Source of the DNA: Thalassospiraceae bacterium LMO-SO8
Lineage (GTDB): Bacteria > Pseudomonadota > Alphaproteobacteria > Rhodospirillales > Casp-alpha2
Direction: 5' to 3'
DNA length: 64,000 nt
NCBI GenBank assembly: GCA_031655335.1
Contig: CP134226.1
Location: forward strand, 930,001-994,000
The notes beneath the pieces are model-generated. The model was not told where the DNA came from, made no database searches, and was given only the letters and a program-made list of their open reading frames with translations. Each line of letters starts with the position of its first letter. Positions within the stretch are counted from its first letter, which is position 1. Below, in pieces: positions 7,338 to 50,662 of the stretch. A program made the translations under genes and the position numbers.

Positions 7338-7414
7338 TGGGGCGTGGTGAAGTGGCTTAACACACCGGTTTTTGGTACCGGCATTCCCAGGTTCGAATCC
7401 TGGCGCCCCAGCCA
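7338..7414 (+). tRNA. tRNA-Gln (anticodon TTG), target of the Tn7-like array
   Basis: A complete cloverleaf with acceptor TGGGGCG / CGCCCCA (7338-7344 with 7404-7410), discriminator G7411 and encoded CCA. The anticodon stem is CCGGT/ACCGG with loop TTTTGGT, which places TTG at positions 34-36. The T arm reads CCAGG-TTCGAAT-CCTGG. The U1-A72 pair and G73 match known tRNA-Gln identity features. Three Tn7-like insertions lie 28-35 nt beyond its 3' end. Confidence 0.95.
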
Positions 7415-7445
7415 TTTTTCTGACAAGCAATTCAATAGCTTATGT
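7415..7445 (+). other. Insertion target (att) downstream of tRNA-Gln
   Basis: This is the only native DNA left between the tRNA and element A. TATGT (7441-7445) is the left copy of the 5-bp duplication of element A (right copy 37799-37803). GCTTA (7438-7442) is the left copy of the duplication of element B (right copy 50503-50507). The T-rich run straight after the tRNA may also serve as its terminator. Confidence 0.85.
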
Positions 7446-7510
7446 TGTCGGAAACATTTTAGTTTGTCCAATCACAGCTTAGATTGTCCAAATGACAATT
7501 TAACTTGTCC
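7446..7510 (+). repeat. Left end of element A with three TnsB-type sites
   Basis: Terminal TGTCGG followed by 16-bp repeats at 7454-7469, 7474-7489 and 7495-7510 (spacing 20 and 21 bp), each fitting ACANNTTANNTTGTCC. Near-identical copies occur at 9855 and 37801, and a decayed one at 50515. Confidence 0.88.
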
Positions 7511-7819
7511 GCTTCCGCACCAAAATTCCTTCATATAGAAAACGGTAGAAAGCGCCGGAGGCGTCCGGATTTTCCGTCGATTTTTTTTGCCTTCCAACCG
7601 TTTCCCGGAAATTTAGAAGCCGAGCAATGCTAAATCCGTTCCGGATTTGTCCGCGCTTGAAATCGGGCGCCGCATCCAGTATCTAAGGCGCAAGCGACAA
7701 CCATACCTCACATAGCCGCGGCCACCCGCGGACATCAAAGCGCGACAGCGAAGCTGGCCCGCGCTTTTTGTGCTTGTCGTTTGCTCTCAAAAACCCAAAT
7801 CAATCGGGAGGCAGAAGTC
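7511..7819 (+). ncRNA. Conserved structured leader, copy 1 (candidate ncRNA or attenuator)
   Basis: These 309 bp lie between the TnsB sites and the 241-aa gene. They have no open frame but are nearly identical in all three intact copies (also 9920-10229 and 37866-38174). Visible structure includes CCGGA...TCCGG followed by a T run, CCGCGG-CCAC-CCGCGG (7716-7731), and a strong terminator-like hairpin AAAGCGCG...CGCGCTTTTT (7737-7769) ending 50 nt before the ATG. This suggests a short terminated RNA or an attenuated leader. Transcription is unproven. Confidence 0.45.
7737..7769 (+). terminator. Terminator-like hairpin upstream of 241-aa gene, copy 1
   Basis: An 8-bp stem AAAGCGCG/CGCGCTTT with a 15-nt loop and a T5 tail. 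The equivalents are 10148-10179 and 38093-38123. It lies before, not after, the gene, so it would end a leader RNA or attenuate the gene. Confidence 0.6.
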
Positions 7820-8545
7820 ATGCGCAATGACATTGCCAAAGTCATCGTCGAGCGCCCACGCCAGGGCGGTCACGGCGCGCGCAAGGGGCGCGCCTTGCGT
7901 AACCTCGAACTGGCGCGGAACGTGGTCGGCATGAAGCGTGCGGCGTCCGAGTCCGGCGACCGTAAGACGCTCAACGAGAACCTCGCACCGCTCCGGCGTT
8001 ATTTCGGCCGTCAGGTCGGGCGCCCCTGGAACAAGGTGTGGTCGGAGGTCTGCGCCAACCTCCGGGTCACATCGACCGTGCAACAACATGTCCGCGACCA
8101 CATTTGCGACTTCGTCGCACACGAAGGTGTTTCGCGGCGCGACGGCCAAGTGTACGTGCACTCGTACTGGGGCGGCAAAAGACCACTGGAAAACTCCATA
8201 TTTGAGTTCTGGGTCGACCCGGCAACCGGGATCCTTCGCCGAAACAAGAGACAGCAAACCTACCGCATGAAGCAGAAGGCGCGCCAAGCAGCATGGGTCG
8301 CGGAATTGCGCAAACGGATGGTCGAACGCGACACCTGGCATCAGTTCCACCTTTTGGACGATGGCGCTTGGTGGGAAGTTGCGCTGGAACAGGAACCCCC
8401 GAAACCGCCGGTAGTCGATGTTGTCTTGAGCGCGGGTTTGTCCGCCCTCTCGCCTGGGCGACTGTACGGCCGTTCAGGCGTCTACGCCGTCGGCAAGCGG
8501 CAGCTTTCAAAGAAAGAGATCAAACGCCTGAAGCTACCTCGCTAG
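7820..8545 (+). CDS. Left-end-associated protein, copy 1 (unknown function)
   Basis: This 241-aa basic, soluble protein occurs three times in the window, always about 370 bp inside a left transposon end. I do not recognise a characterised family. Conserved marks are an N-terminal basic stretch (IVERPRQGGHGARKGR), the block LNENLAPLRRYFGRQ, and GRPWNKVWSEV near residues 70-80. A charged RRNKRQQTYRMKQKAR segment and a lysine-rich end with KRQLSKKEIKRLKL complete it. No DDE, HTH or nuclease motif is obvious. ATG 7820 is chosen because GGGAGG lies 8-13 bp upstream. Its constant position suggests a role in transposon end biology or targeting rather than random cargo; this is inference. Confidence 0.75.
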   Translation: MRNDIAKVIVERPRQGGHGARKGRALRNLELARNVVGMKRAASESGDRKTLNENLAPLRRYFGRQVGRPWNKVWSEVCANLRVTSTVQQHVRDHICDFVAHEGVSRRDGQVYVHSYWGGKRPLENSIFEFWVDPATGILRRNKRQQTYRMKQKARQAAWVAELRKRMVERDTWHQFHLLDDGAWWEVALEQEPPKPPVVDVVLSAGLSALSPGRLYGRSGVYAVGKRQLSKKEIKRLKLPR

Positions 8546-8648
8546 TCCAGAGCCTGAGGCGCGATAAGTTAGGCTTCAACAAGGTTCTGCATTTGGACGA
8601 ATAGCGGACTAATGAACTTTGACCTTCCCCTGTCTGCAATTGACCCTA
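8546..8648 (+). repeat. Downstream flank shared by copies 1 and 3 of the 241-aa gene
   Basis: The sequence from about 8546 to 8648 recurs almost unchanged at about 38909-39005 after copy 3, and it is absent after copy 2 (10956 onward). It contains AGCGGAC/GTCCG words like those in the transposon ends. No gene is visible. Confidence 0.6.
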
Positions 8649-8775
8649 CGCGGACACATCCGTCGGGCGTCCCCAGGCCCGCAATCGCTGTTACGATGGC
8701 GCTTCGAACGAAGACCGTTCCCTTCGTCCCGCGCATGGACGACAATGCCCGGGCGAGCCAGGGAGGACAACAAGG

Positions 8776-9306
8776 GTGCGGACCGTTCGGATCGATGGCG
8801 TCCGGCGCGGCGGCAGAGCGACAACGGTTCTTGCTTGGGGACTGTTTCTCGCCGCAGCCGCATATGTCGCGACGGTTCCCGGTCAAGGTAAGTTTCAATC
8901 CGTTCCGGTGATTGCTGTTGTCGCCGGGTTGCTGGCCCTGGCCATCGCGGCTTCCGTGAACGCCTGGGCGATCGCGCGCGGGCGCGGGGGCCTGTCGATT
9001 GAGCCTGACGGGCTTCGGTGCTTCACCTGGTGGGGCGGGGCGCGGTTCCATCCGTGGGATGCTATCGAGCGGTTCGACGTTCTGTTCGTCGATCCCAACG
9101 ACGGCCAGTCCAGGGAACAGGTGGGGTTCTTCCGGAAATCGGATAACGCCCCCGGCCGGTTCGTGCCATTTTCCGGTGCGCTGGACCTTCCGAACCGCGA
9201 TGCGGTCGCCATCCTGGAGCATGTGCGGCAACTGCCGCCGGAAGCCCGCGCGGCCTTGCCCGACAACCTGGAGACCCTGCGTGCCCAGGCGCGGGCGGCG
9301 GCCTGA
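8776..9306 (+). CDS. Two-TM membrane protein with PH-like cytoplasmic domain (hypothetical)
   Basis: A 176-aa protein. Two hydrophobic segments (about residues 17-36 and 43-65) are followed by a soluble domain of mixed beta character containing GLSIEPDGLRCFTWWGGARFHPWDAIERFDV. That pattern of a short membrane hairpin followed by a strand-rich region with WDAI resembles small bacterial PH-domain proteins. The GTG start at 8776 follows GGGAGGACAA. The next gene starts two bases after its stop, so they form a small operon. Function is unknown. It lies between left ends 1 and 2 and is therefore original cargo of element A. Confidence 0.65.
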   Translation: MRTVRIDGVRRGGRATTVLAWGLFLAAAAYVATVPGQGKFQSVPVIAVVAGLLALAIAASVNAWAIARGRGGLSIEPDGLRCFTWWGGARFHPWDAIERFDVLFVDPNDGQSREQVGFFRKSDNAPGRFVPFSGALDLPNRDAVAILEHVRQLPPEARAALPDNLETLRAQARAAA

Positions 9307-9308
9307 GC

Positions 9309-9548
9309 TTGCGCGCATTCTTTGCCATTGTCGCCGTCCTGTTCGCGGCACTACCGGGCGCCTGCGCCATGTCGGCGGTCGATGCGCCCCACGGCACACC
9401 GTCATGGCGCGAGGGCTGGGCCGACGGGTGCAACTTCGCGCGCGGGATGTCCGGCTGGGGCACGGGCTGGACCGTCGATGTCACACGCCGCCAGTCGGAC
9501 GCCGACTATGCGGCGGGGCTCAACGCCGGGGCGCGGTATTGCGGATAA
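9309..9548 (+). CDS. Small exported hypothetical protein
   Basis: A 79-aa protein with an N-terminal signal peptide (AFFAIVAVLFAALPGACAMS). The C at residue 19 sits in a poor lipobox, so it is either secreted or a weak lipoprotein candidate. The mature part is about 58 residues, aromatic- and glycine-rich (WREGWADG, GWGTGW) with a C-terminal YCG. I do not recognise it. The start is TTG at 9309, immediately after the upstream stop. It is probably cotranscribed with the genes on both sides. Confidence 0.55.
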   Translation: MRAFFAIVAVLFAALPGACAMSAVDAPHGTPSWREGWADGCNFARGMSGWGTGWTVDVTRRQSDADYAAGLNAGARYCG

Positions 9549-9568
9549 TGATGTAAAAGGAACGGACA

Positions 9569-9871
9569 ATGCACAGACATTCGATCCTAGTCGCCACCTC
9601 CGGCGCGCTTCTTCTCCTTGCGGCCTCCGTCGCCGATGTCGACGCAGGCAGCGGCGGCACGGACGATCCTCTGGCCGTCCTGAAACGCATCTACGTCCTG
9701 CCGAATCCCTATTTCGACGCCTTCCATGACCGGGAAGAGCGTCCAAAGTTCTATACCCGCCGCATTCATGAACAGGCCCTCAGGATGGAGGCCTGCGTCT
9801 ACCGCCAGTTCAAGATGGAGCATCTGGACTACGACTTCATCGTGCCGGGCCAGGTGTCGGAAACATCTTAG
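9569..9871 (+). pseudogene. Exported hypothetical protein truncated by a transposon left end
   Basis: The native reading frame starts at ATG 9569, after GGAACGGAC, with a clear signal peptide ending ADVDA-G. It contains VLPNPYFDAFHDREERPKFYT. At 9855 the frame runs into TGTCGGAAAC, the left end of an inserted element, and stops after five transposon-encoded codons. The 3' remainder of the gene is not found elsewhere in the window. The original product therefore had at least 95 residues and an unknown C-terminus. Function is not recognisable. Confidence 0.7.
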
Positions 9872-9919
9872 TTTGTCCAATCACAGCTTAGATTGTCCAA
9901 ATGACAATTTAACTTGTCC
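9855..9919 (+). repeat. Orphan left end (element D) inside element A
   Basis: TGTCGG at 9855 followed by TnsB-type 16-bp sites at 9863-9878, 9883-9898 and 9904-9919. It interrupts the gene at 9569. The preceding 5 bp are CCAGG, and no right end followed by CCAGG exists in the window, so the partner end is missing. Confidence 0.85.
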
Positions 9920-10229
9920 GCTTCCGCACCAAAATTCCTTCATATAGAACACGATAGAAAGCGCCGGAGATGTCCGGATCTTCCGTCGAGGTTTTTTTGC
10001 CTTCCGACCGATGCCCGGAAATTTAGAAACCGAGCAATGCTAAATCCGCTCCGGATTTGTACGCGCTTGAAATCGGGCGCCGCATCCAGTATCTAAGGCA
10101 CAAGCGACAACCATACCTCACATAGCCGCGGCCACCCGCGGACATCGAAGCGCGACAGCGAAGCTGGCCCGCGCTTTTTGTGTTTGTCGTTTGCTCTCAA
10201 AAACTCAAATCAATCGGGAGGCAGAAGTC
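9920..10229 (+). ncRNA. Conserved structured leader, copy 2 (candidate ncRNA or attenuator)
   Basis: Homologous to 7511-7819 with a few substitutions. It includes CCGGA...TCCGG with a following T-run, the CCGCGG palindrome pair, and the terminator-like hairpin at 10148-10179 (AAGCGCG/CGCGCTTTTT). Substitutions in the lower stem are few, so compensatory change cannot be judged here. Confidence 0.42.
10148..10179 (+). terminator. Terminator-like hairpin upstream of 241-aa gene, copy 2
   Basis: Stem AAGCGCG/CGCGCTT with a T5 tail, in the same position relative to the following gene as in copies 1 and 3. Confidence 0.58.
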
Positions 10230-10955
10230 ATGCGCAATGACATTGCCAAAGTCATCGTCGAGCGCCCACGCCAAGGCGGTCACGGCGCGCGCAAGGGGCG
10301 CGCCTCGCGTGACCTTGAACTTGCGCGGTACGCGGTCGGCATGAAGCGTGCAGCGTCCGAGTCCGGCGACCGCAAGATGCTCAACGAGAACCTCGCGCCG
10401 CTCCGGCGCTACTTTGGCCGCCAGGTCGGGCGCCCTTGGAACAAGGTGTGGTCGGAGGTCTGCGCCAACCTTCGTGTCACCTCGACCGTGCAACAGCATG
10501 TCCGCGATCACATCAGCGACTTCGTCGCGTACGAAGGTGTTTCGCGGCGCAACGGCCAGGTGTACGTCCACTCGTACTGGGGCGGCGCAAGACCACTGGA
10601 AATCTCCTTGTTTGAGTTCTGGGTCGATCCGGCAACCGGGATCCTCCGCCGGAACAAGAGACAGCAAACCTACCGTATGAAGCAGAAGGCTCGCCAAGCA
10701 GCATGGATCTCGGAACTGGGCAAACGGATGGTCGAACGCGACGCCTGGCATCAGTTCCATCTTTTGGACGACGGAGCTTGGTGGGAAGTTGCGCTGGAAC
10801 AGGAACCCCCGAAACCGCCGGTCGTCGACGTTGTCTTGAGCGCCGGGTTGTCCGCCCTCTCGCCGGGCCGACTGTACGGCCGTTCAGGCGTCTATGCGAT
10901 CGGCAAACGGCAACTCTCTAAGAAAGAGATCAAACGCTTGAAGCTGTCCCGTTAA
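10230..10955 (+). CDS. Left-end-associated protein, copy 2 (unknown function)
   Basis: A 241-aa paralogue of the proteins at 7820 and 38175, differing at a few per cent of residues spread along its length. The main blocks (LNENLAPLRRYFGRQ, GRPWNKVWSEV, KRQLSKKEIKRLKL) are kept, so the copies appear functional and under selection. GGGAGG precedes the ATG at 10230. It belongs to the orphan left end at 9855. Unlike copies 1 and 3, the downstream flank is not shared. No function can be assigned from sequence. Confidence 0.75.
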   Translation: MRNDIAKVIVERPRQGGHGARKGRASRDLELARYAVGMKRAASESGDRKMLNENLAPLRRYFGRQVGRPWNKVWSEVCANLRVTSTVQQHVRDHISDFVAYEGVSRRNGQVYVHSYWGGARPLEISLFEFWVDPATGILRRNKRQQTYRMKQKARQAAWISELGKRMVERDAWHQFHLLDDGAWWEVALEQEPPKPPVVDVVLSAGLSALSPGRLYGRSGVYAIGKRQLSKKEIKRLKLSR

Positions 10956-11042
10956 CCAGCTAATGCGCCGCATGATCGAAGGGCGGGACAGAAACAGAAC
11001 CATGGCAGCGCGAATTTCGGCGCCCCGACCTGTTGAATGATA

Positions 11043-11480
11043 TTAGATCATTCGCTTAATCTCGACGTACTCGCCGCGAACGCGAAGCGTGACCGTAACG
11101 TCCTGGCGCCCGCGATTGCGCCAGAACCAGCCGTGGTTGCCGTCGAAAGCGGCCTCCAGGGTGCCGCTGTGGTTCTTAACCTTGCGGTCTTTCTTGTAGC
11201 TGATGTTCTTGCCGCCGCCGTCGCCGTGCAGGTCGTAGTTCACCGCGCCGTTTTTGACCGTCCACGAAAACTCCGCCTTTCCTCCCTTGGCCATGGTCAA
11301 TTTGACCTCGGCCCCCTGGCCGGGCTTCAGCGTGATCGACACTTCATCCTTCCAGGCCGCTTCATTGCTTTGTGCCTGAGCCTGCCCGATTGCACCCGGG
11401 ATACCGACATGGTGAGGCAGGGACAGGGCTGAGCCGATCAGCAGGGCCGCGGTCAGGCCGTGAAGAAGACGAGATTTCAT
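11043..11480 (-). CDS. Exported protein with domain shared with the HupE-linked anchor protein
   Basis: A 145-aa protein with a signal peptide (residues 1-36, QAQA-Q). Its mature domain is homologous to the last 110 residues of the protein at 11947-12624: both contain PGQGAEVKL, VNYDLHGDGGGK, GNHGWFWRN and a terminal VRGxYxExKR. The domain looks like a periplasmic beta-sandwich. Association with HupE and a metal-responsive regulator suggests a periplasmic role in metal uptake or tolerance; this is inferred. ATG 11480 has a plausible GGAGA-type site upstream. Confidence 0.7.
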   Translation of the reverse strand: MKSRLLHGLTAALLIGSALSLPHHVGIPGAIGQAQAQSNEAAWKDEVSITLKPGQGAEVKLTMAKGGKAEFSWTVKNGAVNYDLHGDGGGKNISYKKDRKVKNHSGTLEAAFDGNHGWFWRNRGRQDVTVTLRVRGEYVEIKRMI

Positions 11481-11530
11481 GATTTAAGTTTCTCCGTTCG
11501 ATAAAGGGCGCGGACAATGGATCCGCCAAT

Positions 11531-11884
11531 CTAAGGACAGGGCCAACGCTGGGCATAGGCCCGCGCGAGGCTGACATGGGCTTCTTCTTCAGGGGGCGTC
11601 GGGTTCTTTTCAAGCCAGGCCATTCCAACGATCACCAAATAGACGGATGACGCATTCTCCGGAATACAGGCCCGCATGCCATGAATATCACCCGTTTTCA
11701 GTTTACCGCGAACATGGGCGATGAGCTTCTCGCATTTGTCGAACCGGCGGGACGCGTCATGATCTGCGCTCGTCACAAGGCATATCGATTCGAGTTGATC
11801 GACACCGATGCTTTCGGCTGCCTTCGCATCGGCGAAAGACACCATCATTGCGAAGACGATCCCGGCTCCGAGGTGTCGCAACAT
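11531..11884 (-). CDS. Rap1a/Tai-family-like small exported protein
   Basis: A 117-aa protein with a signal peptide (MLRHLGAGIVFAMMVSFADA). Two cysteine regions frame a helical mature domain ending CIPENASSVYLVIV...WLEKNP...ARAYAQRWPC. The CIP...YLxxxP...ALxxxxPC pattern is that of Rap1a/Tai-type periplasmic immunity proteins, which neutralise type VI amidase effectors. No effector gene is adjacent, so it may be an orphan or a domain reused in the metal cluster. The start is ATG 11884 with AAGGAC upstream; the longer frame is unsupported. Confidence 0.6.
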   Translation of the reverse strand: MLRHLGAGIVFAMMVSFADAKAAESIGVDQLESICLVTSADHDASRRFDKCEKLIAHVRGKLKTGDIHGMRACIPENASSVYLVIVGMAWLEKNPTPPEEEAHVSLARAYAQRWPCP

Positions 11885-11946
11885 CGTCCTTTTCCCAGTC
11901 TGTTGGCCGCCGGGCGGCGCGGGCCGTGTAGTGGCCTGCATCGCCG

Positions 11947-12624
11947 TTAGATCAGTCGTTTGAGCTCCAAGTAGTCGCCCCGAACCCGGAGCGTGACCTT
12001 GATGGGCTGATTTTCCCGGTTGCGCCAGAACCAGCCGTGGTTGCCGGTAAAGGCCGCCTCCAGCCTCCCTTCATGGCCCGGCACGCCCCGGCCTTTCTGA
12101 TAAGCAATGGACTTGCCGCCGCCGTCGCCGTGCAGGTCGTAATTGGCAACGCCGCCGTCGACACTCCAATGGAACTCCGCCACGGCCCCTTCGTCCATCA
12201 CCAGTTTGACCTCGGCGCCCTGACCGGGCACCAGCGTGAAGGAGATTTCCTCCTTCCATGTCGGGGCCTGGGCCTCCGCCGTCTTTTGCGGCTCAGCCGG
12301 TTTCGCCGAATCGGCGGAAGGTGCTGCGACTTGCGCGGGCGCCGACGGTTTCGGCGGCTCCGCGGCCGGCGTCATGGGCTGCTGCTCCATGGCGGCGGTC
12401 TGCTCCTGATCCGCCTTGGCTTCCGCTTCCAGTTGCGTCTTGATTTCGCCCATCTCGGTCAGCCCCAGGACACGGCCGATGCCGGTGGGGTCGATGGCAT
12501 ATTCGGCGGGCAGGACGATCGTGACCAGAATGACGGCCGCCGAAACCAGGGCATAGAACGTCGAACGCAGAAGCCTGCCGGTCGTCGGCAATTCGCTCTG
12601 AGAAGGGATTTCGGAATTGAACAT
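11947..12624 (-). CDS. Transmembrane-anchored periplasmic protein linked to HupE
   Basis: A 225-aa protein: a short cytoplasmic N-terminus, one transmembrane segment (about residues 22-42), a low-complexity Pro/Ala/Glu linker with a probable coiled part (residues 60-115), and a C-terminal domain of about 105 residues homologous to the exported protein at 11043-11480. I recall similar proteins annotated as transmembrane anchor proteins next to HupE genes. The start ATG 12624 follows AAAGGT. Its position just after hupE on the same strand (17-bp gap) argues for a shared operon and a joint role in metal transport or handling. Confidence 0.72.
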   Translation of the reverse strand: MFNSEIPSQSELPTTGRLLRSTFYALVSAAVILVTIVLPAEYAIDPTGIGRVLGLTEMGEIKTQLEAEAKADQEQTAAMEQQPMTPAAEPPKPSAPAQVAAPSADSAKPAEPQKTAEAQAPTWKEEISFTLVPGQGAEVKLVMDEGAVAEFHWSVDGGVANYDLHGDGGGKSIAYQKGRGVPGHEGRLEAAFTGNHGWFWRNRENQPIKVTLRVRGDYLELKRLI

Positions 12625-12641
12625 GGATTGACCTTTCGGGA

Positions 12642-13334
12642 TTAGGAAACGAAGTAACCGGTGAGCTGGTAGCCGATGAGAATGAACCCGGCGCTCATCA
12701 TCGCGACGTTCACCGTATAGGCGCGGCGGATGAAGCTGTCGGTGCGCCGCCACCAACCCATCAGCACGAGGATCGCAGCGAGCGCCGTCAGCTGGCCCAG
12801 TTCGACGCCGACGTTGAAGGCCAACAGATTGGGGATCAGGCCGTCTTCGGCAATGTCATAGTCGATGATCTTCGAAGCCAGACCGAAGCCATGGCAGAAC
12901 CCGAAGATCAGGGTCGCCCATTTGGTGTTGGGCTGGAAGCCGAACCAGCGCTGATAGGCGCCCAAGTTGTCGAGCGCCTTGTAGACGATGGAAAAACCGA
13001 TGATGGCGTCGATGATGTAGCTGTTGATGCCGAAGTCGAACAGCACGCCGAGCAGCATGGTCGTCGAATGGCCGAGCGCGAACAGGCTGACGTAGATGGC
13101 GATGTGCTTCATCCGGTAGAGGAAGAAGATCACCCCGAACAGGAACAGAATGTGGTCGTAGCCCGTCACCATGTGCTTGGCGCCCAGGTACGAAAACGGC
13201 AGGAGCAAAACACCCGAGACTTCGAGGATATAGCCCTTGTCGCCCTGGGCGACGGCGTGGGCCTGCGCGGCATCAATGCTTGCGAGGCAAAGGAAAAGGG
13301 CGCCCAAGGCCGCCCCGGCGAGTGTTCTGATCAT
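12642..13334 (-). CDS. HupE/UreJ-family membrane protein
   Basis: A 230-aa protein with a signal peptide (cleavage near AQA-HAVAQ) and about six membrane segments. It contains GYDHILFLFGVIFF and LGHSTTM, whose histidine/aspartate residues inside membrane segments are the hallmark of HupE/UreJ-type nickel or cobalt permeases. The HupE-like subgroup with a LPF...GYDHILF core is common in metal islands. ATG 13334 is preferred over an ATG eight codons upstream because AGGGCC precedes it. It is divergent from the metal regulator at 13415, with an operator-like palindrome in the shared spacer. Confidence 0.82.
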   Translation of the reverse strand: MIRTLAGAALGALFLCLASIDAAQAHAVAQGDKGYILEVSGVLLLPFSYLGAKHMVTGYDHILFLFGVIFFLYRMKHIAIYVSLFALGHSTTMLLGVLFDFGINSYIIDAIIGFSIVYKALDNLGAYQRWFGFQPNTKWATLIFGFCHGFGLASKIIDYDIAEDGLIPNLLAFNVGVELGQLTALAAILVLMGWWRRTDSFIRRAYTVNVAMMSAGFILIGYQLTGYFVS

Positions 13335-13389
13335 TGTGGCCCTATCTGCGGTTTGCATCGTTAGCGGTACATCATTGGCTTGACCATAA

Positions 13390-13407
13390 CCTATCCAGGG
13401 GGATAGG
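13390..13407 (+). promoter_or_regulatory. Operator-like G-tract palindrome of CsoR/RcnR type
   Basis: CCTATCC-AGGG-GGATAGG: 7-bp inverted arms around a G-rich centre, located 8 bp upstream of the regulator ATG in the divergent spacer with hupE. G/C tracts within inverted repeats are the known binding sites of CsoR/RcnR-family repressors, so autoregulation and control of both flanking operons are likely. Confidence 0.7.
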
Positions 13408-13414
13408 ATCAAGC

Positions 13415-13693
13415 ATGGACGGAACGCACAGACATCAAAGTCACCCGGTTGTGATCAACCGCCTGAAACGGGCGCACGGCCACCTTCGCAAGGTCATTGA
13501 AATGATCGAGGCCGGGCGGCCGTGCCTGGACGTTGCGCAACAACTTCATGCGGTCGAGAGCGCAGTGGCGAATGCAAAGACCACGCTGATCGAAGACCAC
13601 CTGGACCACTGCCTGGACACCGTCGTCGGCCCCATGGACGCCGACCAGCGCCAGGAGATCGCCGATTTCAAGGCGATCGCCAAATACCTCTAG
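13415..13693 (+). CDS. CsoR/RcnR-family metal-sensing repressor
   Basis: A 92-aa all-helical DUF156 protein. Putative metal ligands are C37, H62 and C66 (the Cys-His-Cys set of CsoR-like sensors) plus N-terminal H5, H7 and H10, which are more like RcnR nickel/cobalt sensors. Binding of metal would release it from DNA. The core NRLKRAHGHLRKVIEMIE is typical. The start at ATG 13415 fits family length; an upstream frame extension is not needed. It sits at the head of an operon with an MFS exporter that has a histidine-rich tail. By context it probably senses nickel, cobalt or copper; which one is not decidable from sequence. Confidence 0.85.
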   Translation: MDGTHRHQSHPVVINRLKRAHGHLRKVIEMIEAGRPCLDVAQQLHAVESAVANAKTTLIEDHLDHCLDTVVGPMDADQRQEIADFKAIAKYL

Positions 13694-13716
13694 TTACGGA
13701 TCGAACGGGCGCGGCC

Positions 13717-15466: not shown

Positions 15467-15573
15467 TCAAGAGACTGATCTTGACGTCGATCAATGTGCC
15501 TTACGACCAATCGTGGAATATCTACGCGCGTAAATCGCGAAGGGCCAAGACCCGCAGCCATTCAGGAATCATC

Positions 15574-17864: not shown

Positions 17865-17866
17865 CG

Positions 17867-18592: not shown

Positions 18593-18664
18593 CCTGGAAC
18601 CCCCAAGACGAAGCCGAACGCCAACAACGAATAATGGGCACCAATCGAGTTGCGGAGGAAGTGT

Positions 18665-19618: not shown

Positions 19619-19654
19619 TGACCTGTTGCCGCGTACCTTTGAGGAAAGCCGAAC

Positions 19655-40414: not shown

Positions 40415-40416
40415 CG

Positions 40417-41426: not shown

Positions 41427-41534
41427 GCGGCGAAAATAGCCGTTTTTGCATGAACCGTACATGAACGAGCCGCTCAGGCCTCGTTCAGATTGCTTCTGCT
41501 AGCGTCCCCTCAACGCAACACAGGAGCAATCACC

Positions 41535-41822: not shown

Positions 41823-41851
41823 CTCACTGACGGCGGATCAAGGAGCGGACG

Positions 41852-42343: not shown

Positions 42344-42354
42344 GAGTCAAACAC

Positions 42355-42771: not shown

Positions 42772-42774
42772 GTT

Positions 42775-43236: not shown

Positions 43237-43314
43237 ACCCGATCAATTGCGCCACCTATCCTTTCATCCCGAAAGAGTCCGCTGATTGAGGCAGTGTCCG
43301 CTCCTGGCTAGAAG

Positions 43315-43493
43315 TGGACACTGCACCAAAACGGCTGCAATGGCTCTTATTCGAGGAAGCAGACGTCTGATTCTTCAGATAAGCCCGTTCTAAATTTCCC
43401 TTGCACACGAACCTTCGCATCACCAAATACCCGCCGCTTTAAATTGTCCTGACTTGGGCAAAGGCTGCCGCCCATGTTTGCGGCTTAACCACA
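43315..43493 (+). repeat. 179-bp leader of tniQ, copy B
   Basis: The counterpart of 20725-20903, with only a few substitutions. The cargo to the left is unrelated to that in element A, so this point marks the cargo/core border. The adjoining 43237-43314 holds no gene but contains GTCCGCT words resembling TnsB-site cores. Confidence 0.7.
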
Positions 43494-44768
43494 TTGGACG
43501 GCCCCTGGCCATTCCGACCGCGACCGGTCGATGATGAGACGTTCTCGTCTTGGTTCTCGCGCCTGGCTTGGGCCAACGGCTTGGAACCGGGAGAACTCTA
43601 CCGTGTCGCCTTGCCCGGTGGACGAATGCATCGGGCCGACCTGGACAGGTTTGCTTGCGACGATTTGATCGCCGGATTGTCGACCCACACGGGCGTCCAA
43701 CAAGACGACCTGCGGACACGAACGCTACGGCGTTGGGCTATCAATCTCTACGGAGATGACGACGGCCGATGCAAGCTGCTCTGGCTACCCGCCACCGGCG
43801 TGCATCAAAAGTCCAAGTCGTTCGGTCAGCAGGCCTGCGTCGCATGCCTACGCGCTGACGCTGTGCCGCACCTCCGTTCGGTGCACCGGCTGGCGTTTGT
43901 CACCAGCTGCCCCCGTCACAGCCGCCTGCTGATCGATCGGTGCCCAGAATGCACCGCACCAATTCAACCTCTGTACGGATCACCTCACCTAGGATCAGTT
44001 TGCCTTTGTTGGAATTGCGGTTTTGATCTTCGGCGCGCGGAGCCACCGGAGGCCCATACGCATCGCGCCCAAGAAGAACTGATCCGCATTGCCCAAGGCG
44101 ATTGGGGAGAGCTGGGGAGTTTCGGTCCGGTTTATCCGCTCGCCTACCTCCGCATTCTCTGGGTCGTTTATCGGCTTTTGGCAACTGGTCGGTTTGCCTA
44201 CCCACTACGCGAGTGGGCACGCCGAAACGTCGACGCGCCCGATGTTCCGCCATCTGCCATACCGCGCATCAAAGAGATCGAACGCTTACCGGTCCAAAGT
44301 CGCCATGTCCTTATTCAGTATGCCTACGCATTGCTCGACGATTGGCCGTCCCGGTTCGTCGCGGCTTGCAAGGGTGTCGGGATCACGTCGCGAGTGCTCC
44401 TGAAAGATCCTGCACAGATACCCTTCGCATTGTGGGCGCCAGCATCGAGCGAGCTTCACGATGGCGACTATCAACCGGCACCATCCGAAGTCGCGGCGGC
44501 GAGGGCATTCTTGCAAAGGCAAGACACGCTACCGACACGCGGCGCCTTGAGCCAAGTCCTCGGCTGCAAATCCAAGCACATCGATGAACTCGCCGTTCCC
44601 GCCGGCGACCACTGCGCCTACGGGACGAACCGCTATTGGAAACTGGACGGCGTCAGCCCAGATGTCCGCGCGGCGGCACGTGCCGCCGCAGTGCATGAAG
44701 GACACAACGTCGGGCCGTGGGTCGATCAGATCTTGCGCGAGGCACTCAAAAGGCGAGGTTTGATATGA
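43494..44768 (+). CDS. tniQ: TniQ-family target-selection protein, element B
   Basis: A 424-aa homologue of the protein at 20904, same length, with the zinc-finger cysteines conserved. Differences concentrate at about residues 55-90 (for example THTGVQQDDLRTRTLRRWAI against AHTGIERGDLLKRTLKAWSG) and in short patches later, while the C-terminal 100 residues are almost identical. Both elements use the same tRNA-Gln site, so the shared parts are the better candidates for target recognition. TTG start at 43494. Confidence 0.88.
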   Translation: MDGPWPFRPRPVDDETFSSWFSRLAWANGLEPGELYRVALPGGRMHRADLDRFACDDLIAGLSTHTGVQQDDLRTRTLRRWAINLYGDDDGRCKLLWLPATGVHQKSKSFGQQACVACLRADAVPHLRSVHRLAFVTSCPRHSRLLIDRCPECTAPIQPLYGSPHLGSVCLCWNCGFDLRRAEPPEAHTHRAQEELIRIAQGDWGELGSFGPVYPLAYLRILWVVYRLLATGRFAYPLREWARRNVDAPDVPPSAIPRIKEIERLPVQSRHVLIQYAYALLDDWPSRFVAACKGVGITSRVLLKDPAQIPFALWAPASSELHDGDYQPAPSEVAAARAFLQRQDTLPTRGALSQVLGCKSKHIDELAVPAGDHCAYGTNRYWKLDGVSPDVRAAARAAAVHEGHNVGPWVDQILREALKRRGLI

Positions 44769-44828
44769 AAGTACATGTTGGGGGTTGCGGCACGGAAAAA
44801 TCACTACATATAGTATTTAGGAGGAGAG

Positions 44829-45470
44829 ATGCCGGTTAGAAAAATTCCCATCAGTAGCCGGAGCCTGACGGGGCGCCACGCATACGGGCGCGGCAAAGGT
44901 GCTGTCGGATTTGAATCGTCTCTCGAGCGGGATTTCATCTCGCTGATGCGTTTCGATGCCAATGTCACGGACATCGAAGAGCAGCCCGTCCGGATTTCCT
45001 TCCAGGACACTGCCGGCAAACATCGGCACTACACGCCGGACTTCCTGGTTCATCGACGTTCTGGCGCCTCGATGCTCGCCGAGATCAAACCTGCCAAGTT
45101 CGTGACAGCCGACCTCGACGACAAATTCAATGCCGCCAGGAATTTCGCCCGCAGGCGTGGCTGGACATTCGAGGTTTGGACGGAACGTGAGATCCGCATT
45201 CCCCGGCTGGAGAACGCCAAATTCCTCCTCCCCTACCAGCAAGCGGAGCCGCCGACATGGGCGCGCGACCGCTTACTGATCGCACTCGGCGAAACAGGCC
45301 GGACGACTGTCACCCGCCTTCTCGAAGCAACCTGCCGCCAAGAAGATGACCGTGCGGAAGCGCTGTTTGCGCTGTGGCATTTGGTCGCGACAGGAACGGT
45401 CGCCGCGGGCATGGACGATCCCCTAACACCGGCAACCAACATTCATTTGAACGAAGGCGATCAACGATGA
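44829..45470 (+). CDS. tnsA: TnsA-like endonuclease, element B
   Basis: A 213-aa copy of the protein at 22239, catalytic E33, D71 and E85-x-K87 intact. GGAGGAG precedes ATG 44829. Its stop overlaps the tnsB start (ATGA). Confidence 0.87.
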   Translation: MPVRKIPISSRSLTGRHAYGRGKGAVGFESSLERDFISLMRFDANVTDIEEQPVRISFQDTAGKHRHYTPDFLVHRRSGASMLAEIKPAKFVTADLDDKFNAARNFARRRGWTFEVWTEREIRIPRLENAKFLLPYQQAEPPTWARDRLLIALGETGRTTVTRLLEATCRQEDDRAEALFALWHLVATGTVAAGMDDPLTPATNIHLNEGDQR

Positions 45471-47335
45471 GTACGCCGCTTAGTTTCGATGTCGGCAGCG
45501 AAGTCCAGTTCCTTGGACGTGCCGCCGTCATTACCTCCCAACCCAGCTTCGATGAAGTCATGGTGCAGTTCGTCGATACGGGCGAAATCAAATCAGCGAA
45601 TGTCGGACAGCTCAAAAGCAAAGAAGCGCCTAAAATCGACAAACCCCGGGTCCTGGACGCCATACCGGAGAGCGACCTGGACACGGCTCGAGAACGATAC
45701 GAGGCGATCAAACCGCTGCTCGACGTTACCCATCGAAAAGGCGAAGCCTTCAAAGCCCGCGCCGAAGAGATCGACGTCAACGAGAAGACATTGCGCCGCT
45801 GGTGCTCCGACTATCAGGCTAGGGGCTTGCTCTCCGATCTCGCACCCAACCGACGAGGCAAACGTAAACGGCGTTTGCCGAGAAAGGTCGAAGCCATTAT
45901 CCAGGACGTGATTGAGAGCGTCTATCTCACCAAACAGAAGGTGACGGCGAAGAAAGCCATCGACGAGGTCGTTCTCCGATGCAAGGCGGCCCGATTGAAA
46001 CCGCCGCACCCGAACACCATTCGTGAGCGCATCAAAGCGGTCAAAGAAAGCGAGCGGGTCAAACGCCGCCAAGGCGCCAAGGCCGCCCGCGACCAATTCG
46101 CCGAAGTGAAGGGTGAATTTCCGGATGGGAACTTCCCGCTGGAGACCGTTCAGATCGACCATACGAAGTTGGATATCATCCTGGTCGACGACGACACACG
46201 GCTGCCGATCGGGCGTCCGTGGCTGACGGTCGCCATCGACGTCTTCAGCCGCATGATCACCGGATATTACATCTCTCTCGACGCGCCGAGTTCATTCTCC
46301 GTGGGCATGTGCATCCGTCATTCAGCGCTGCCCAAGGACGCCGAGCTTGAAAAGCTGGGCATCGACGGCAAGTGGCCGGTCTGGGGCCTGATGCGGACCC
46401 TCCATGCCGACAACGGCAAGGATTTTCACAGCAACCTTATCAAAAAATCCTGCGACGAATATGGGATCAACATCGCTTGGCGGCCGGTAAGGCAGCCGCA
46501 CTTCGGCGGGCATGTCGAACGGCTCATGGGCACAATCGCCAAGGAAATCCACACCCTTCCAGGCACGACCTTCTCCAACATCCAGGACAAGGGTGAATAC
46601 AACTCAGCGAAACAGGCATCGATGACGCTGGATGAACTGCAGGCCTGGTTCGTCACCTATGTGGTCGGTGTCTATCACCAGCGCGTCCACAAAGGCATCG
46701 GCATGAGCCCGATTGAAAAGTGGCGAGAAGGCGTCCTAGGAACCGGCCGACGGAAAGGCACCGGGCTCAACGCGCCGATCAGCGACCCGGAGCGGTTCGC
46801 CATCGACTTCCTCCCGCTCGAATCCCGCACGGTTCAACGCGAAGGAATTGCTTGGGACGGCGTCAATTACCGCGCCCCCAGCATCCTCGGATGGATCGGG
46901 GAGAAACAAGGGGGACGGAGCGTGAAGTTCACCATCAGGCGGGACCCCCGCGACATCAGCCGCATCTATTTTCTCGATCCCGAACTCAAGGAGTATCTCG
47001 AGGTTCCCTACCGGGACCAGACGCACCCCTCGATCTCCCTTTGGGAGCTTCGGGCGGCGAAAAAATATCTGAGAGACCGAAACGCGGAGATCATCGACGA
47101 AGACGCCATCTTCGCCGCCATCGAGGAGATGGGACGCATCGCGGAGACCGCCACGACCGAAACCAAGAAAGCCCGACGGGCGAAACAGAGGAAGAAAGTC
47201 CATGCACGAGAAACATCAGACCAACGGCCGGGCATTTCGCTCGTCGTCGATAATTCAAAGGCCACAGATGAAGACGAAGGCGAATTCGACATCGGCGATG
47301 CCGAGCTTGAAGGCCGTTGGGAGGATTGGTCATGA
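45467..47335 (+). CDS. tnsB: TnsB/TniA-type DDE transposase, element B
   Basis: A 622-aa intact copy with D231, D315 and E351 (QIDHT, HADNGKDFH, GGHVERLMG). The open frame begins upstream, but ATG 45467 overlaps the tnsA stop exactly as in element A. Synonymous and a few non-synonymous differences from the A copy show that the two elements diverged before they met here, not by recent local duplication. Confidence 0.92.
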   Translation: MSTPLSFDVGSEVQFLGRAAVITSQPSFDEVMVQFVDTGEIKSANVGQLKSKEAPKIDKPRVLDAIPESDLDTARERYEAIKPLLDVTHRKGEAFKARAEEIDVNEKTLRRWCSDYQARGLLSDLAPNRRGKRKRRLPRKVEAIIQDVIESVYLTKQKVTAKKAIDEVVLRCKAARLKPPHPNTIRERIKAVKESERVKRRQGAKAARDQFAEVKGEFPDGNFPLETVQIDHTKLDIILVDDDTRLPIGRPWLTVAIDVFSRMITGYYISLDAPSSFSVGMCIRHSALPKDAELEKLGIDGKWPVWGLMRTLHADNGKDFHSNLIKKSCDEYGINIAWRPVRQPHFGGHVERLMGTIAKEIHTLPGTTFSNIQDKGEYNSAKQASMTLDELQAWFVTYVVGVYHQRVHKGIGMSPIEKWREGVLGTGRRKGTGLNAPISDPERFAIDFLPLESRTVQREGIAWDGVNYRAPSILGWIGEKQGGRSVKFTIRRDPRDISRIYFLDPELKEYLEVPYRDQTHPSISLWELRAAKKYLRDRNAEIIDEDAIFAAIEEMGRIAETATTETKKARRAKQRKKVHARETSDQRPGISLVVDNSKATDEDEGEFDIGDAELEGRWEDWS

Positions 47336-48216
47336 CTGAGCCCGCAAGAAGCGAACTGACATCATTCGAGCTGTTCGGCCCGGAGCCGCGAGAGAGATTG
47401 CATCGGATCTGGTCGTCCTGCTGGATCGACTACCCGGTCGCCTTGCAGGCATTGAAACGCCTTGAGTGGCTGCTCAACCACCCCCGCGTCACGCGGCCAC
47501 CCTGCTGCCTGATCGTCGGTGAAACCAATCACGGCAAGACGACGATCGCTCGGAAGTTCGAACGGATGCACCAACCGGACCCCGGTGCCTCCGACGAGGC
47601 GAAATCCATGCCCGTCGTCTACGTGCAAGCGCCGCCCATGGCGGATGTAGCCGGCTTCTACGGCAACATTTTGAACGCCGTCGGCGCGCCTTTCATGCCG
47701 ACCTGGTCCACGTCCCGGAAGCAGGATCTAGTCCTAAAGACTCTGACCAATCTGGGAACCAGGATGCTGATCGTCGACGAACTCCACAGCATCCTGCAAG
47801 GGAAGATAGATCAACGAGGTGTCTTCCTGAACGTCTTGAAGCACCTGACCAACGAACTGCAGATCCCGATCGTGGGCTTAGGCACCAGGGAAATTCTGCG
47901 TGTCGTGCAAACAGATCAGCAGTTCGGCAATCGCTTCGAGCCGTTCACCCTGCCGAAGTGGGAACTCGGCCCCGGATACGCGACGTTCCTGGCTCATATA
48001 TGTCGCCGCACGGGCATGAAGGACGTTTCGTTCATGAAGGACAAAGCCTTGGTCCGCCGCATCCACACCATGAGCGAAGGTCTTACCGGAGAGTCCTGGA
48101 AAGTCGTGTGCTTTGCCCTCGAACGGATGGAGGAGGCCGGTCGAACGGCGTTGGAACCGAAGATCCTGGATGAGATCGATTGGACGGCGCCGAAGGATCG
48201 GAGGCGTTCAGCGTAA
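47332..48216 (+). CDS. tnsC: TnsC/TniB-type AAA+ regulator, element B
   Basis: A 294-aa ATPase with Walker A GETNHGKT (63-70), Walker B MLIVDELHSIL (D149, E150) and a sensor region PIVGLGTREILRVVQTDQQ. It would bridge target-bound TniQ and the TnsA-TnsB-transposon complex and enforce target immunity. It is the only intact tnsC in the window and could serve both elements. It is coupled to tnsB by an ATGA overlap. Confidence 0.9.
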   Translation: MTEPARSELTSFELFGPEPRERLHRIWSSCWIDYPVALQALKRLEWLLNHPRVTRPPCCLIVGETNHGKTTIARKFERMHQPDPGASDEAKSMPVVYVQAPPMADVAGFYGNILNAVGAPFMPTWSTSRKQDLVLKTLTNLGTRMLIVDELHSILQGKIDQRGVFLNVLKHLTNELQIPIVGLGTREILRVVQTDQQFGNRFEPFTLPKWELGPGYATFLAHICRRTGMKDVSFMKDKALVRRIHTMSEGLTGESWKVVCFALERMEEAGRTALEPKILDEIDWTAPKDRRRSA

Positions 48217-48467
48217 AGAGATTAAGGAGCATGACTGGCTCCCCACCAAGCAATACACATCAATGACTAAGCTCAAATTTTCATCTCGATCCACAGATGG
48301 AAAAGCGAAATATCCGAAGCTACGGTCGATCTAACATGTGAAGGATGCGCGCTCTAAAAGTAGGAAATTGCGCCCCAAACAGCATGCATTTCAGATGGGC
48401 CACTTGACCCTAAACCGCGCGCATCCCAATTACTGTCCACAGCCTTCGCCCTGGACAGGAGAGCATC
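48217..48467 (+). other. Spacer between tnsC and the small right-end gene
   Basis: No convincing gene. From about 48370 the sequence resembles 37364-37455 of element A, so it belongs to the transposon core. No terminator stands out. Confidence 0.5.
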
Positions 48468-48662
48468 ATGAGCAGCCCAAAACGCCCGAAAAGGTCAGGC
48501 CTAATCACTGAGGATGCGAAGTGCCTGGATCTCATTGAGAAGGATATGAGGGACCATCCCGAACGGGTGCGGCCGGCAGATGACCTCCTTGCCGAAATGG
48601 AAGAGCTCGTGGGTCAGACCAAGGGCAACCAATCTCAGGACACGCGAAACTCTAAGGATTGA
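48468..48662 (+). CDS. Small right-end protein, copy B (PrlF-tail-like)
   Basis: A 64-aa protein nearly identical to the one at 37456, with the same DMRDHPERVRPADDLLAEME core. ATG 48468 follows CAGGAGAGC. Its conservation in both elements at the same distance from the right end, despite unrelated cargo, supports a core role. Function unknown. Confidence 0.62.
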   Translation: MSSPKRPKRSGLITEDAKCLDLIEKDMRDHPERVRPADDLLAEMEELVGQTKGNQSQDTRNSKD

Positions 48663-48795
48663 AATCATTGGGCATTTGGCGCGGGAACAGTCAATTTAAG
48701 ATATAAATTTTCCAGCTTTGGATAAATCAACGGGAGTATAAAGTTGACACCCGTAAGGCATTTTGGTATCCTTTCATCATCGAAAGGAGATCGAA

Positions 48796-49650
48796 ATGAC
48801 CGGCCCCACCATCCAGGATTTCTTCAAGCAGTTCCCTAACGACGACGCTTGCCTTGACTACCTGATGGCGAAGCGCCACGGCACAACGCTGGATTGCCCC
48901 AAGTGCGGAAAGCACGGGAAGTTCCACCGCGTGAAGCGCCACCCGGCCTATGAGTGCGCCTGGTGCGGGTTTGAGATCTTCCCGATGGCCGGCACCATGT
49001 TCCATCGCTCCCACACGCCGTTGCAGAAGTGGTTTTACGCTCTCTACCTGTTCACCACTTCCCGTCACGGTGTTCCGGCCAAGGAATTGCAGCGCCAGTT
49101 GGGCGTCAGCTACCCCACGGCGCTTCGTATGTCCCACGAAATCCGCAAGTACATGGGTGAGGTTGATGGGGAGCCGCCGTTGACGGGTCACGTTGAGGTT
49201 GATGAAACCTACGTCGGCGGCAAGCGCCCCGGTAAGCGTGGCCGTGGAGCAGGCGGGAAGTCCGTTGTGTTCGGCATCATGGAACGTGGCGGGGAACTGT
49301 TTACCAAGGTTGTCCCCGACGCCAAGCGCAAGACCCTGTTTGCGGAAATCACCCGTCAGGTTCCCGAGGGAACGCGGATCAGCAGCGATGAATTTGTCGT
49401 CTACCACACGCTTTCCAGCCTCGGGTATGACCACGATACGATTGACCACGGGGCCAAGGAATGGGCGCGGGGAGATACTCATGTGAACAGCCTTGAAGGC
49501 TTCTGGGCGCAGTTGAAACGGTCGATCCGGGGCACCCATATCTCTGTCAGTGCTAAGCATCTTCCGAAGTATCTGGGCGAGTTTGAGTACCGCTACAATC
49601 GGCGGAAGAATCCCGGGGCGATGTTTGGGGAACTACTGGCGAACCTGTAA
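48796..49650 (+). CDS. IS1595-family transposase
   Basis: A 284-aa protein with an N-terminal zinc ribbon (CPKCGKHGKF and CAWCGFEIF), a helical linker (LYLFTTSRHGVPAKELQRQL) and the ISXO2-like catalytic domain: VEVDETYVGGK (first acidic residues, D/E), SDEFVVYH and NSLEGFWAQLKRSIRGTH. ATG 48796 follows AAAGGAG. Length fits the family. It appears intact. Confidence 0.92.
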   Translation: MTGPTIQDFFKQFPNDDACLDYLMAKRHGTTLDCPKCGKHGKFHRVKRHPAYECAWCGFEIFPMAGTMFHRSHTPLQKWFYALYLFTTSRHGVPAKELQRQLGVSYPTALRMSHEIRKYMGEVDGEPPLTGHVEVDETYVGGKRPGKRGRGAGGKSVVFGIMERGGELFTKVVPDAKRKTLFAEITRQVPEGTRISSDEFVVYHTLSSLGYDHDTIDHGAKEWARGDTHVNSLEGFWAQLKRSIRGTHISVSAKHLPKYLGEFEYRYNRRKNPGAMFGELLANL

Positions 49651-49771
49651 CCACAGCCTCCAGCAGGGGCCAGAACCGCTCATCCGCTTGGGATGGGTTC
49701 TCCTTCGCAAACTGCTCAAGACGATCCATTTTGCGGGCCTCCTCCAAACTGAGGTATTTGCCTCGACTCAT
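49553..49771 (-). CDS. Small passenger protein of the IS1595 element
   Basis: A 72-aa protein (SRGKYLSLEEARKMDRLEQF core) with an ideal SD, AGGAGG six bases before ATG 49771. Its 3' end overlaps the transposase gene on the other strand by 98 bp, and its 5' end overlaps the membrane-protein gene. The SLEEARK...FAKENPS pattern looks like that of other small proteins I recall near IS1595-type transposases. Function unknown. Confidence 0.6.
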   Translation of the reverse strand: MSRGKYLSLEEARKMDRLEQFAKENPSQADERFWPLLEAVVTGSPVVPQTSPRDSSADCSGTQTRPDTSEDA

Positions 49772-50318
49772 CGCCATCCTCCTTTGCCAATATGCCCTGC
49801 AAGCGCTCAATCAAAATTGCAACCTCAGTGAGCTTCCCATTCTCAAACTCAGAAGCTCGCCTAAACCACCTTTTAGTAAAAAAACCTATGGTTGCCCATC
49901 TATCCGCAACCACCTCATCATATTCGCTACGCAAGTACTCCCAAACCGTGGCCGCCCACGCGCCATATGCAGTGGTTATCGCATCTTGAAACTCGTCCCC
50001 CGATGCGGCTGTTTTCAGCGTCTTATAGGCGATTATTCCGTCTTTAATTAAACCATTCAGATGGCGGCGGCGCTTGGCTCGCCTCCCCCAAACGGTCTTG
50101 GACGGCGCGAGAGATAAGATGAACCATATCGTTAGCGCGGCGGCAAACATGACAAAGGATAGCGTTACCTTTGTTGCGAGCGGCAAGCCTTCGACAATAG
50201 CGATCATGAGAACACCAACGCCAGCGACCGCGCCCCATACCCAAACGCACCATACGTAGGTGTCGTGAATATCTTCGATCCACCCAAAAAATTTAAAGAT
50301 CGCTCTAACCATACCCAT
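49716..50318 (-). CDS. Two-TM passenger membrane protein of the IS1595 element
   Basis: A 200-aa protein with two membrane segments (about 22-44 and 48-70) and a basic stretch WGRRAKRRRHLNGL followed by a helical cytoplasmic domain. I do not recognise a family. Its start ATG 50318 has AAGG upstream. It lies wholly within the inverted repeats, so it moves with the IS. IS1595-family elements are known to carry passenger genes. Confidence 0.6.
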   Translation of the reverse strand: MGMVRAIFKFFGWIEDIHDTYVWCVWVWGAVAGVGVLMIAIVEGLPLATKVTLSFVMFAAALTIWFILSLAPSKTVWGRRAKRRRHLNGLIKDGIIAYKTLKTAASGDEFQDAITTAYGAWAATVWEYLRSEYDEVVADRWATIGFFTKRWFRRASEFENGKLTEVAILIERLQGILAKEDGDESRQIPQFGGGPQNGSS

Positions 50319-50422
50319 AACCTTGCTCCCACCCGCCCGGATGAGTCGAGTCGAACCGTGCGAGGCGCGGGATTATGGGAGGATGTGTGTACGGGTGTCA
50401 ACTTAACACACCCGTAAATCAA

Positions 50423-50502
50423 AGCATGATTCTGGACCGCCTCAACTGTCACAAATCAGGCCCTTTGAACCCGATTTTGGACAATTCAAAATGTTTCCGA
50501 CA
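50423..50502 (-). repeat. Right end of element B, outer part
   Basis: It continues the right-end sequence after the IS1595 duplication, aligning base for base with 37719-37798 of element A and ending GTTTCCGACA. The innermost site, beside the IS, corresponds to 37708-37723 and is cut by the insertion. The next 5 bp, GCTTA, are the target duplication of element B. Confidence 0.88.
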
Positions 50503-50514
50503 GCTTAGCACGGT

Positions 50515-50579
50515 TTTCAGAAACATCTTATTTTGGCCAATCACGGCTTAGATTGTCCTCGCCACAAGTTAGAATGACG
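50515..50579 (+). repeat. Decayed left end of a third Tn7-like element (C)
   Basis: TTTCAG at 50515 stands where TGTCGG is expected. The repeats ACATCTTATTTTGGCC (50523-50538), ACGGCTTAGATTGTCC (50543-50558) and ACAAGTTAGAATGACG (50564-50579) follow with the same 20/21-bp spacing as in the intact left ends. Mutations in the terminus and site 3 suggest an old, inactive insertion about 35 nt from the tRNA before B and A arrived. The 83 bp to 50662 show no leader or 241-aa gene. Confidence 0.8.
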
Positions 50580-50662
50580 GCATTCGACCTTCCTGAAAAT
50601 GCCGCCGCCGCGTTGCCGCGAGGCGACACTGCAACTGAGCATACGCAAAAGATCCAAGGCCG

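Follow-up and report, generated by a model that had tools for sequence, protein, structure and literature searches.

Tn7 inserts at glmS by means of TnsA, TnsB and TnsC together with a selector, TnsD; its ends carry repeated sites, insertion creates a 5-bp duplication, and the point of insertion is offset from the target gene, which is spared. Genomic islands placed at tRNA genes by tyrosine integrases are marked by a copy of the tRNA 3′ segment at their far end. Homing to tRNA genes by proteins of the TniQ/TnsD family is already published: the TnsD of a type I-D CRISPR-associated transposon (CAST I-D, CyCAST) inserts 30–33 nt downstream of tRNA-Leu without a guide RNA (PMC10293859). Here we describe a 64,000-nucleotide stretch (the window) of Thalassospiraceae bacterium LMO-SO8 (CP134226.1, positions 930,001 to 994,000) in which three Tn7-like elements, A, B and C, follow one another behind a single tRNA-Gln(TTG) gene. 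The newer aspects are the targets, the switching between them and the recurrent stacking at one site; a literature survey of limited reach, outside which stacking may be described, found no work joining 'Tn7-like' with 'tRNA-Gln' and none describing this clade of TniQ or stacking at a tRNA gene. We consider it very probable that A, B and C are successive TnsA/TnsB/TnsC/TniQ insertions, guided by TniQ to a point about 30 bp behind the tRNA-Gln gene, with the newest member of the stack nearest the tRNA.

Nested insertions behind the tRNA-Gln gene

There are several informative features of the array, which lies in a 3.98-Mb genome assembled as a single contig (coordinates are collected in Table 1). 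First, the left ends (TGTCGGAAAC) begin at 7446 in A and 37801 in B and the right ends (GTTTCCGACA) stop at 37798 and 50502, each left end holding three related sites spaced about 21 nt apart, such that the combination of TGT...ACA ends, repeated sites and a 5-bp duplication typical of Tn7-like elements is present. Second, the duplications are nested, as a preliminary description of this DNA had claimed: A is flanked by TATGT on both sides, the last three bases of the right copy being the TGT of B, and when A is omitted in silico the GCTTA before it directly adjoins the TGT of B, with the same GCTTA found again 3′ of B. Position 37798 was the sole partner with a matching end found for A in the duplication search, and the nesting agrees with the proposed order in which the newest element lies next to the tRNA. 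Third, the distances from the tRNA 3′ end are as first described, 31 nt for A, 28 nt for B with A left out, and 35 nt for C by the same arithmetic. Finally, the genome-wide search for these ends that had been suggested, allowing up to three mismatches in the left-end pattern, matched only within the array (three forward and one reverse; control, none).

The oldest member was at first seen just as a decayed left end 7 bp beyond the B duplication. This end is indeed present at 50515, but C comprises more than a left end, since a right end (TGTAGGAAACGA, minus strand) with an adjoining TniQ remnant occurs at 63866. The C sequence matches the congener G001 at 93% identity from 50515 up to 58328 and then, at 89%, another G001 contig up to 63869, and C appears to be one element spanning its two ends. 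Homology of the backbone to congeners restarts near 64142, and the array occupies about 56 kb. Element A is itself composite, as a second intact left end within it (A2, at 9855) interrupts a stretch that is continuous in the congener G002.

The offset, the orientation with the left end toward the tRNA, the intact tRNA gene and the linked TniQ of about 420 residues together argue for TniQ-directed homing. In the mechanism we propose, TniQ most likely recognises the tRNA-Gln gene by binding its 3′ half and, presumably relayed through TnsC, would direct TnsA-TnsB to insert about 30 bp downstream with the left end toward the tRNA. The position of the insertions and the published homologues suggest that the reader of this 3′ part is TniQ itself. 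Insertion occurs downstream of the sequence that is read, which would stay unaltered and usable, so that the next element would arrive at nearly the same offset, on the earlier terminus or within 3 bp of it; survival of the read sequence is the sole rule needed to build a stack. What the sequences show directly are the ends, the nesting of the 5-bp duplications, a nearly constant offset, one empty site besides single ones, and stacking in four genomes.

Two other origins of the array can be weighed against these data. The members might have arisen by duplication of, or homologous recombination within, one ancestral element and not by repeated insertion, an origin that the close relationship of A and B could suggest (140 of 150 bases shared between left ends, 596 of 622 residues between TnsBs), as could the second left end within A. 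But A and B each have a 5-bp duplication of their own, positioned as nested insertion demands, their cargo differs, and nesting is seen again in G001 (with another duplication and ends of a different family), G582 and G584, and we regard this origin as very unlikely. Type V-K elements, whose attachment (att) sites are mostly tRNA genes (PMC11406308), raise the other possibility, insertion guided by a CRISPR-type RNA directed against the tRNA gene. Comparison of positions 7280–7445 with the rest of the window gives, as the longest exact matches, two of 13 nt (one in the T-arm, one across the tRNA 5′ start), no direct repeats of at least 20 nt lie within 120 nt of each other in 7300–64000, and no Cas family is present among 30 window proteins compared with Pfam, the rest of the genome not having been searched for cas genes. 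These results make no guide apparent, in line with the original expectation; these comparisons found no cas genes, no array and no guide against the att site inside an element such as would mark a CAST, and guidance of this kind is extremely improbable here.

The locus in related genomes and the choice of tRNA gene

The tRNA-Gln locus was matched in all eight genomes of the genus, in G006 in pieces over several contigs, and the empty, single and stacked sites whose presence in relatives had been set beforehand as a test are all found. The site is empty in G003. G007 has a single element (16261–37999, duplication GCTGT), and its flanks, joined at GCTGT, align with G003 without gaps and with 282 of 294 bases identical, as predicted for an empty site, the target 5-mer itself differing in G003. 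G001 is stacked: an outer element with different ends (TGTAGGAAAC) and the duplication ATTGT, which overlaps the TGT of the next element by three bases, is followed by a second element without a clean duplication (TTAAT at the right, TTAT before the left end) and then by the C left end. Both halves of C have counterparts in G001, on two contigs, and C, common to the two genomes, lies farthest from the tRNA, the position that stacking demands of the oldest member. In G002, which gave no TniQ match, a left end lies 29 nt behind the tRNA; in G004 one left end lies at 33 nt and another closely follows it, 18 bp further on; and G005 has only a TGTCG, 29 nt behind the tRNA, which is perhaps the trace of an element and perhaps chance.

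Stacks also occur in another family of the order. In G584 the first element (e1, 23861–33270) has the duplication CTTCT, its last base being the first of the next left end, and in G582 the first element (33769–45160) has the duplication TTAGC, with the next left end immediately after. The nested arrangement is present in four genomes of two genera, with successive insertions offset by 3, 3, 1 and 0 bp, which supports the view of the site as a cargo-stacking locus. Perfect duplications with no second left end seen adjoining are found in G007, G588 (CTCAC) and L144 of Azospirillum (ACTTC); no right end was found at the other loci, which therefore count neither for nor against stacking.

The wider survey employed TniQ scans of 61 relatives, 385 genomes of the class, 18 and 43 genomes of two other orders, 317 genomes of the same order and 398 of the phylum, sets that partly overlap. 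A scan of genome contigs with five TniQs gave seven loci, three of them from two congeners already known, and among 58 plasmid records with a TniQ match two from Azospirillum (46–47% identity) were followed, 28 others being listed at 28–33%. Flanking sequence was retrieved around the long-type TniQs and four short ones. The 28 long-type genes examined include those of two Azospirillum brasilense replicons and a broken gene in G555, and 24 of them, at 22 tRNA loci, are assigned to elements whose start lies behind a tRNA gene or a 3′ fragment of one. A location mostly away from tRNA-Gln, which would have counted against the original reading, is not what was found, as 17 lie at tRNA-Gln (TTG or CTG). 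The clade is not confined to this target, however: six are at tRNA-Ser(GGA) and one is at tRNA-Val(CAC).

Junctions were tabulated for 23 of these 24 genes (the second G584 element, at 27 nt, being omitted) and for G002 and G004, which lack TniQ. The hallmark of tRNA homing by TniQ or TnsD, insertion at a nearly fixed distance of about 30 nt from a tRNA gene, is apparent in 23 of the 25, at 27–38 nt from the tRNA 3′ end (median 31). Eight (window A and B, G007, G001, G582, G584, G588 and L144) are verified by duplications and lie at 27–35 nt. By a rough estimate that takes a 4-Mb genome to hold some 50 tRNA genes, about one junction in a thousand would by chance lie no more than 70 nt behind a tRNA. 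The spacer is not conserved between genera, leaving the tRNA gene as the common feature. The Azospirillum brasilense elements, taken later as a test, lie 35 nt behind tRNA-Gln (L144) and 28 nt behind a tRNA-Gln 3′ fragment (L145). The duplication search covered 22 left ends and gave six convincing partners (window A, G007, G001, G588, G584 e1 and G582 e1); for 15 no partner was found, two of these being flanked on the left by another element, and a candidate in G164, weak and within tnsB, was rejected. No duplication was found at L145, unlike L144. Six matches from the phylum showed no tRNA in the loci of only about 4 kb that were inspected.

Several observations weigh against tRNA-directed insertion by TniQ. 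First, no tRNA-adjacent end was found for four of the 28 genes (G552, G573, G642 and G698); the contigs of G698, G573 and G642 end 1.4–9.4 kb upstream, and the only tRNA-Gln of G552 is on the tnsC side. Second, two of the 25 junctions, at 65 and 67 nt, are both beyond a terminator-like hairpin. Third, the 17 junctions other than the eight verified were placed by eye from TGT and end-like repeats, a procedure that favours the expected places, and their offsets are softer for want of a duplication. Fourth, TniQ is 6–12 kb from the end credited to it in L055, G164, G613 and G637. Fifth, the A2 left end has no adjoining tRNA, and the joined L144 flanks align with two other Azospirillum strains in the tRNA part only, with no empty site apparent. 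Finally, integrase-type islands use tRNA-Gln as well, and proximity to a tRNA is by itself no proof of homing.

This last point raises the possibility that the tRNA is a general island hotspot which the elements reach through an integrase, TniQ being irrelevant. In G006 the same tRNA-Gln gene carries a tRNA 3′ half of the kind expected from an integrase island, and 3′ fragments are present in G582, G584 and Azospirillum L145. But eight elements, those with verified junctions, have 5-bp duplications and TGT/ACA ends, and the short TniQs, with profile matches ending by residue 319 of 416, have no tRNA in any of the four stretches inspected. Integrase islands leave a tRNA 3′ copy, whereas A and B are bounded by 5-bp duplications and lack such a copy, no exact match to the tRNA region longer than 13 nt being present elsewhere in the window. 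We therefore hold an integrase origin to be highly improbable and continue with homing through TniQ. An island separates the element from the intact tRNA in G582, G584 and L145, where the element is 27–28 nt behind the tRNA 3′ fragment (about 45 nt long in G582 and G584, about 17 nt in L145); to judge from this arrangement, either the fragment would suffice for targeting or the island may have come later. In L145 (NZ_CP032346.1, p1) this junction lies in 19600–19660, and the intact gene, 7 kb upstream, has only about 17 nt in common with the fragment.

Users of tRNA-Gln and tRNA-Ser are intermingled on the TniQ tree (25 rows, Azospirillum left out), with at least four changes of amino-acid label among labelled rows, and sister TniQs have different targets in two cases, the Gln and Ser elements of G001 (100/98) and those of G469 (Gln) and G164 (Ser) (99/97). 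On the TnsB tree the G001 Ser element is near that of the window (91/85), its TniQ being sister to that of the other G001 element. Swapping of TniQ between transposase cores is not claimed, as an approximately unbiased (AU) test did not reject an agreeing TnsB tree (p 0.172). Comparison of ten TniQ pairs domain by domain singled out no specificity region: residues 331–372 are least alike in six pairs (tied in one) whatever the target, and residues 373–424 are most alike in nine, with Gln and Ser users both represented. In the short TniQs the profile matches stop before this conserved tail, and one guess is that the tail might read the T-arm common to tRNA genes.

Target immunity lowers Tn7 insertion near a resident end (PMC11406308, PMC12452197), an effect quoted as reaching up to 190 kb (PMC12452197). 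Stacks of related ends in natural genomes would argue against such immunity here, and the likeness of A and B in both left ends and TnsBs suggests that it is weak, absent or escaped. A competing explanation, to which we assign a probability a little below even, is that immunity is normal and that stacks formed because their members had diverged enough by the time the second arrived. The outer G001 element and the next have clearly different ends and the G584 left ends share only 91 of 131 aligned bases, as this predicts, but the A and B left ends share 140 of 150 bases with TnsBs 96% identical, and the e1 and e2 left ends of G582 share 108 of 126 aligned bases. We tentatively suggest, as a possibility somewhat short of probable, that this alphaproteobacterial clade of TniQ comprises tRNA-gene readers that change among Gln, Ser and Val targets, in elements without effective target immunity, for which a single tRNA gene is an accretion site and the duplications record the order of cargo.

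Transposition genes and cargo

The Tn7-like gene set is complete in B, with TnsA beside TnsB, a TnsC-type AAA ATPase and a TniQ/TnsD selector (Table 1); the TniQ profile matches solved TniQ and TnsD chains, the best at 8e-12. The tnsC of A is interrupted by a 7.2-kb insertion, and A would consequently need TnsC from outside, for example from B, to move now.

Table 1. Features of the tRNA-Gln array, in window coordinates
Feature	Coordinates	Strand	Support
tRNA-Gln(TTG), attachment gene	7338..7414	+	ARAGORN
Target-site copies GCTTA (7438-7442, for B) and TATGT (7441-7445, for A)	7438..7445		
Element A, outer boundaries TGTCGGAAAC...GTTTCCGACA, duplication TATGT	7446..37798	+	
A left end, three repeats ~21 nt apart (TTAGTTTGTCC, TTAGATTGTCC, TTAACTTGTCC), putative TnsB sites	7446..7510	+	
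Second intact left end (A2) within A	9855..9919	+	
A TniQ, 424 residues, 89% identical to B TniQ	20904..22178	+	
A TnsA, 92% identical to B TnsA	22239..22880	+	Pfam match for B copy
A TnsB, 596/622 residues identical to B TnsB (96%)	22877..24745	+	
A TnsC, first ~50 codons (split gene)	24727..24875	+	
Insertion in A tnsC: DDE_Tnp_1_4 (IS1380-type) transposase and HlyD/ABC exporter genes, CTTGA at both edges	24876..32066		
A TnsC, rest of gene	32067..32822	+	
Right TATGT copy, final 3 bases = TGT of B	37799..37803		
Element B, duplication GCTTA (7438-7442 / 50503-50507)	37801..50502	+	
B TniQ, 424 residues	43494..44768	+	Pfam TniQ 7e-25
B TnsA, 213 residues	44829..45470	+	Pfam TnsA N 3e-18, C 8e-8
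B TnsB, about 622 residues	45464..47335	+	Pfam Mu-transpos_C 4e-12; rve under its cut-off
B TnsC, 299 residues, intact (TniB/AAA family)	47317..48216	+	Pfam TniB 2e-67
Right GCTTA copy	50503..50507		
Old element C (probably one element): decayed left end 50515, NHLM-type exporter genes, right end 63866	50515..63866	+	
TniQ remnant by C right end, 27 residues, one stop	63737..63817	+	

The cargo of A comprises transporters and a cluster at 33318–36933 with genes for an Ogg-type glycosylase, a nucleoside deoxyribosyltransferase, a QueC-like protein and a weakly nitroreductase-like protein, a module that may modify nucleotides or DNA or act in defence; PADLOC, run on eight window proteins, reported TniQ models and a QueC model only. 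B carries a two-component system and a dihaem cytochrome, and C an NHLM-type exporter and an AMP-binding/condensation protein. A protein of about 246 residues is encoded just within the left ends of A, A2 and B (7817–8554, 10227–10952 and 38172–38909), the B copy having no Pfam match. It also occurs in G002 (84%) and in G001 (71%), where the TniQs of its host elements are only about 41–42% identical, and was found in three of 314 genomes of the order, all of the same genus, with one partial match (44%) on a Novosphingobium plasmid. N-terminal TniQ remnants are present in the window, in G001 (oriented contig, 46437–46679) and in G004 (oriented contig, 7264–7377), the first two adjoining right ends, as if transposition genes were lost through deletions beginning inside tniQ with the cargo retained.

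Relation to known systems

Tn7-like systems are under development as insertion tools, and a single TniQ clade found at three or more kinds of tRNA gene, including well-supported sisters at different ones, would make the determinants of specificity mappable. Reinsertion of close relatives at the same site is a natural test of the reach of target immunity outside Tn7, and the stack is likewise a natural test of ordered genomic-island growth, in which one tRNA gene seems to be used again and again as a landing site for new genes.

The elements differ from the Tn5053/Tn402 family, which is without TnsA and targets res sites, in having TnsA and a site adjacent to a tRNA gene. They resemble Tn7 at glmS in their TnsA/B/C set with a selector, end repeats, 5-bp duplication and intact target (PMC11406308), but unlike Tn7, which shows target immunity (PMC12452197), they use tRNA genes and are found, related to one another, repeatedly at one site. 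Closest in targeting are CAST I-D (CyCAST) and I-B2 (PmcCAST), in which a protein of the TnsD/TniQ family also uses a tRNA gene as the att site (PMC10293859, PMC11406308). Those elements carry CRISPR-Cas and belong to a subfamily with fused TnsA-TnsB (PMC11406308), whereas here TnsA and TnsB are separate, a single TniQ of about 420 residues is present, no CRISPR was found, and the targets are tRNA-Gln, tRNA-Ser and tRNA-Val.

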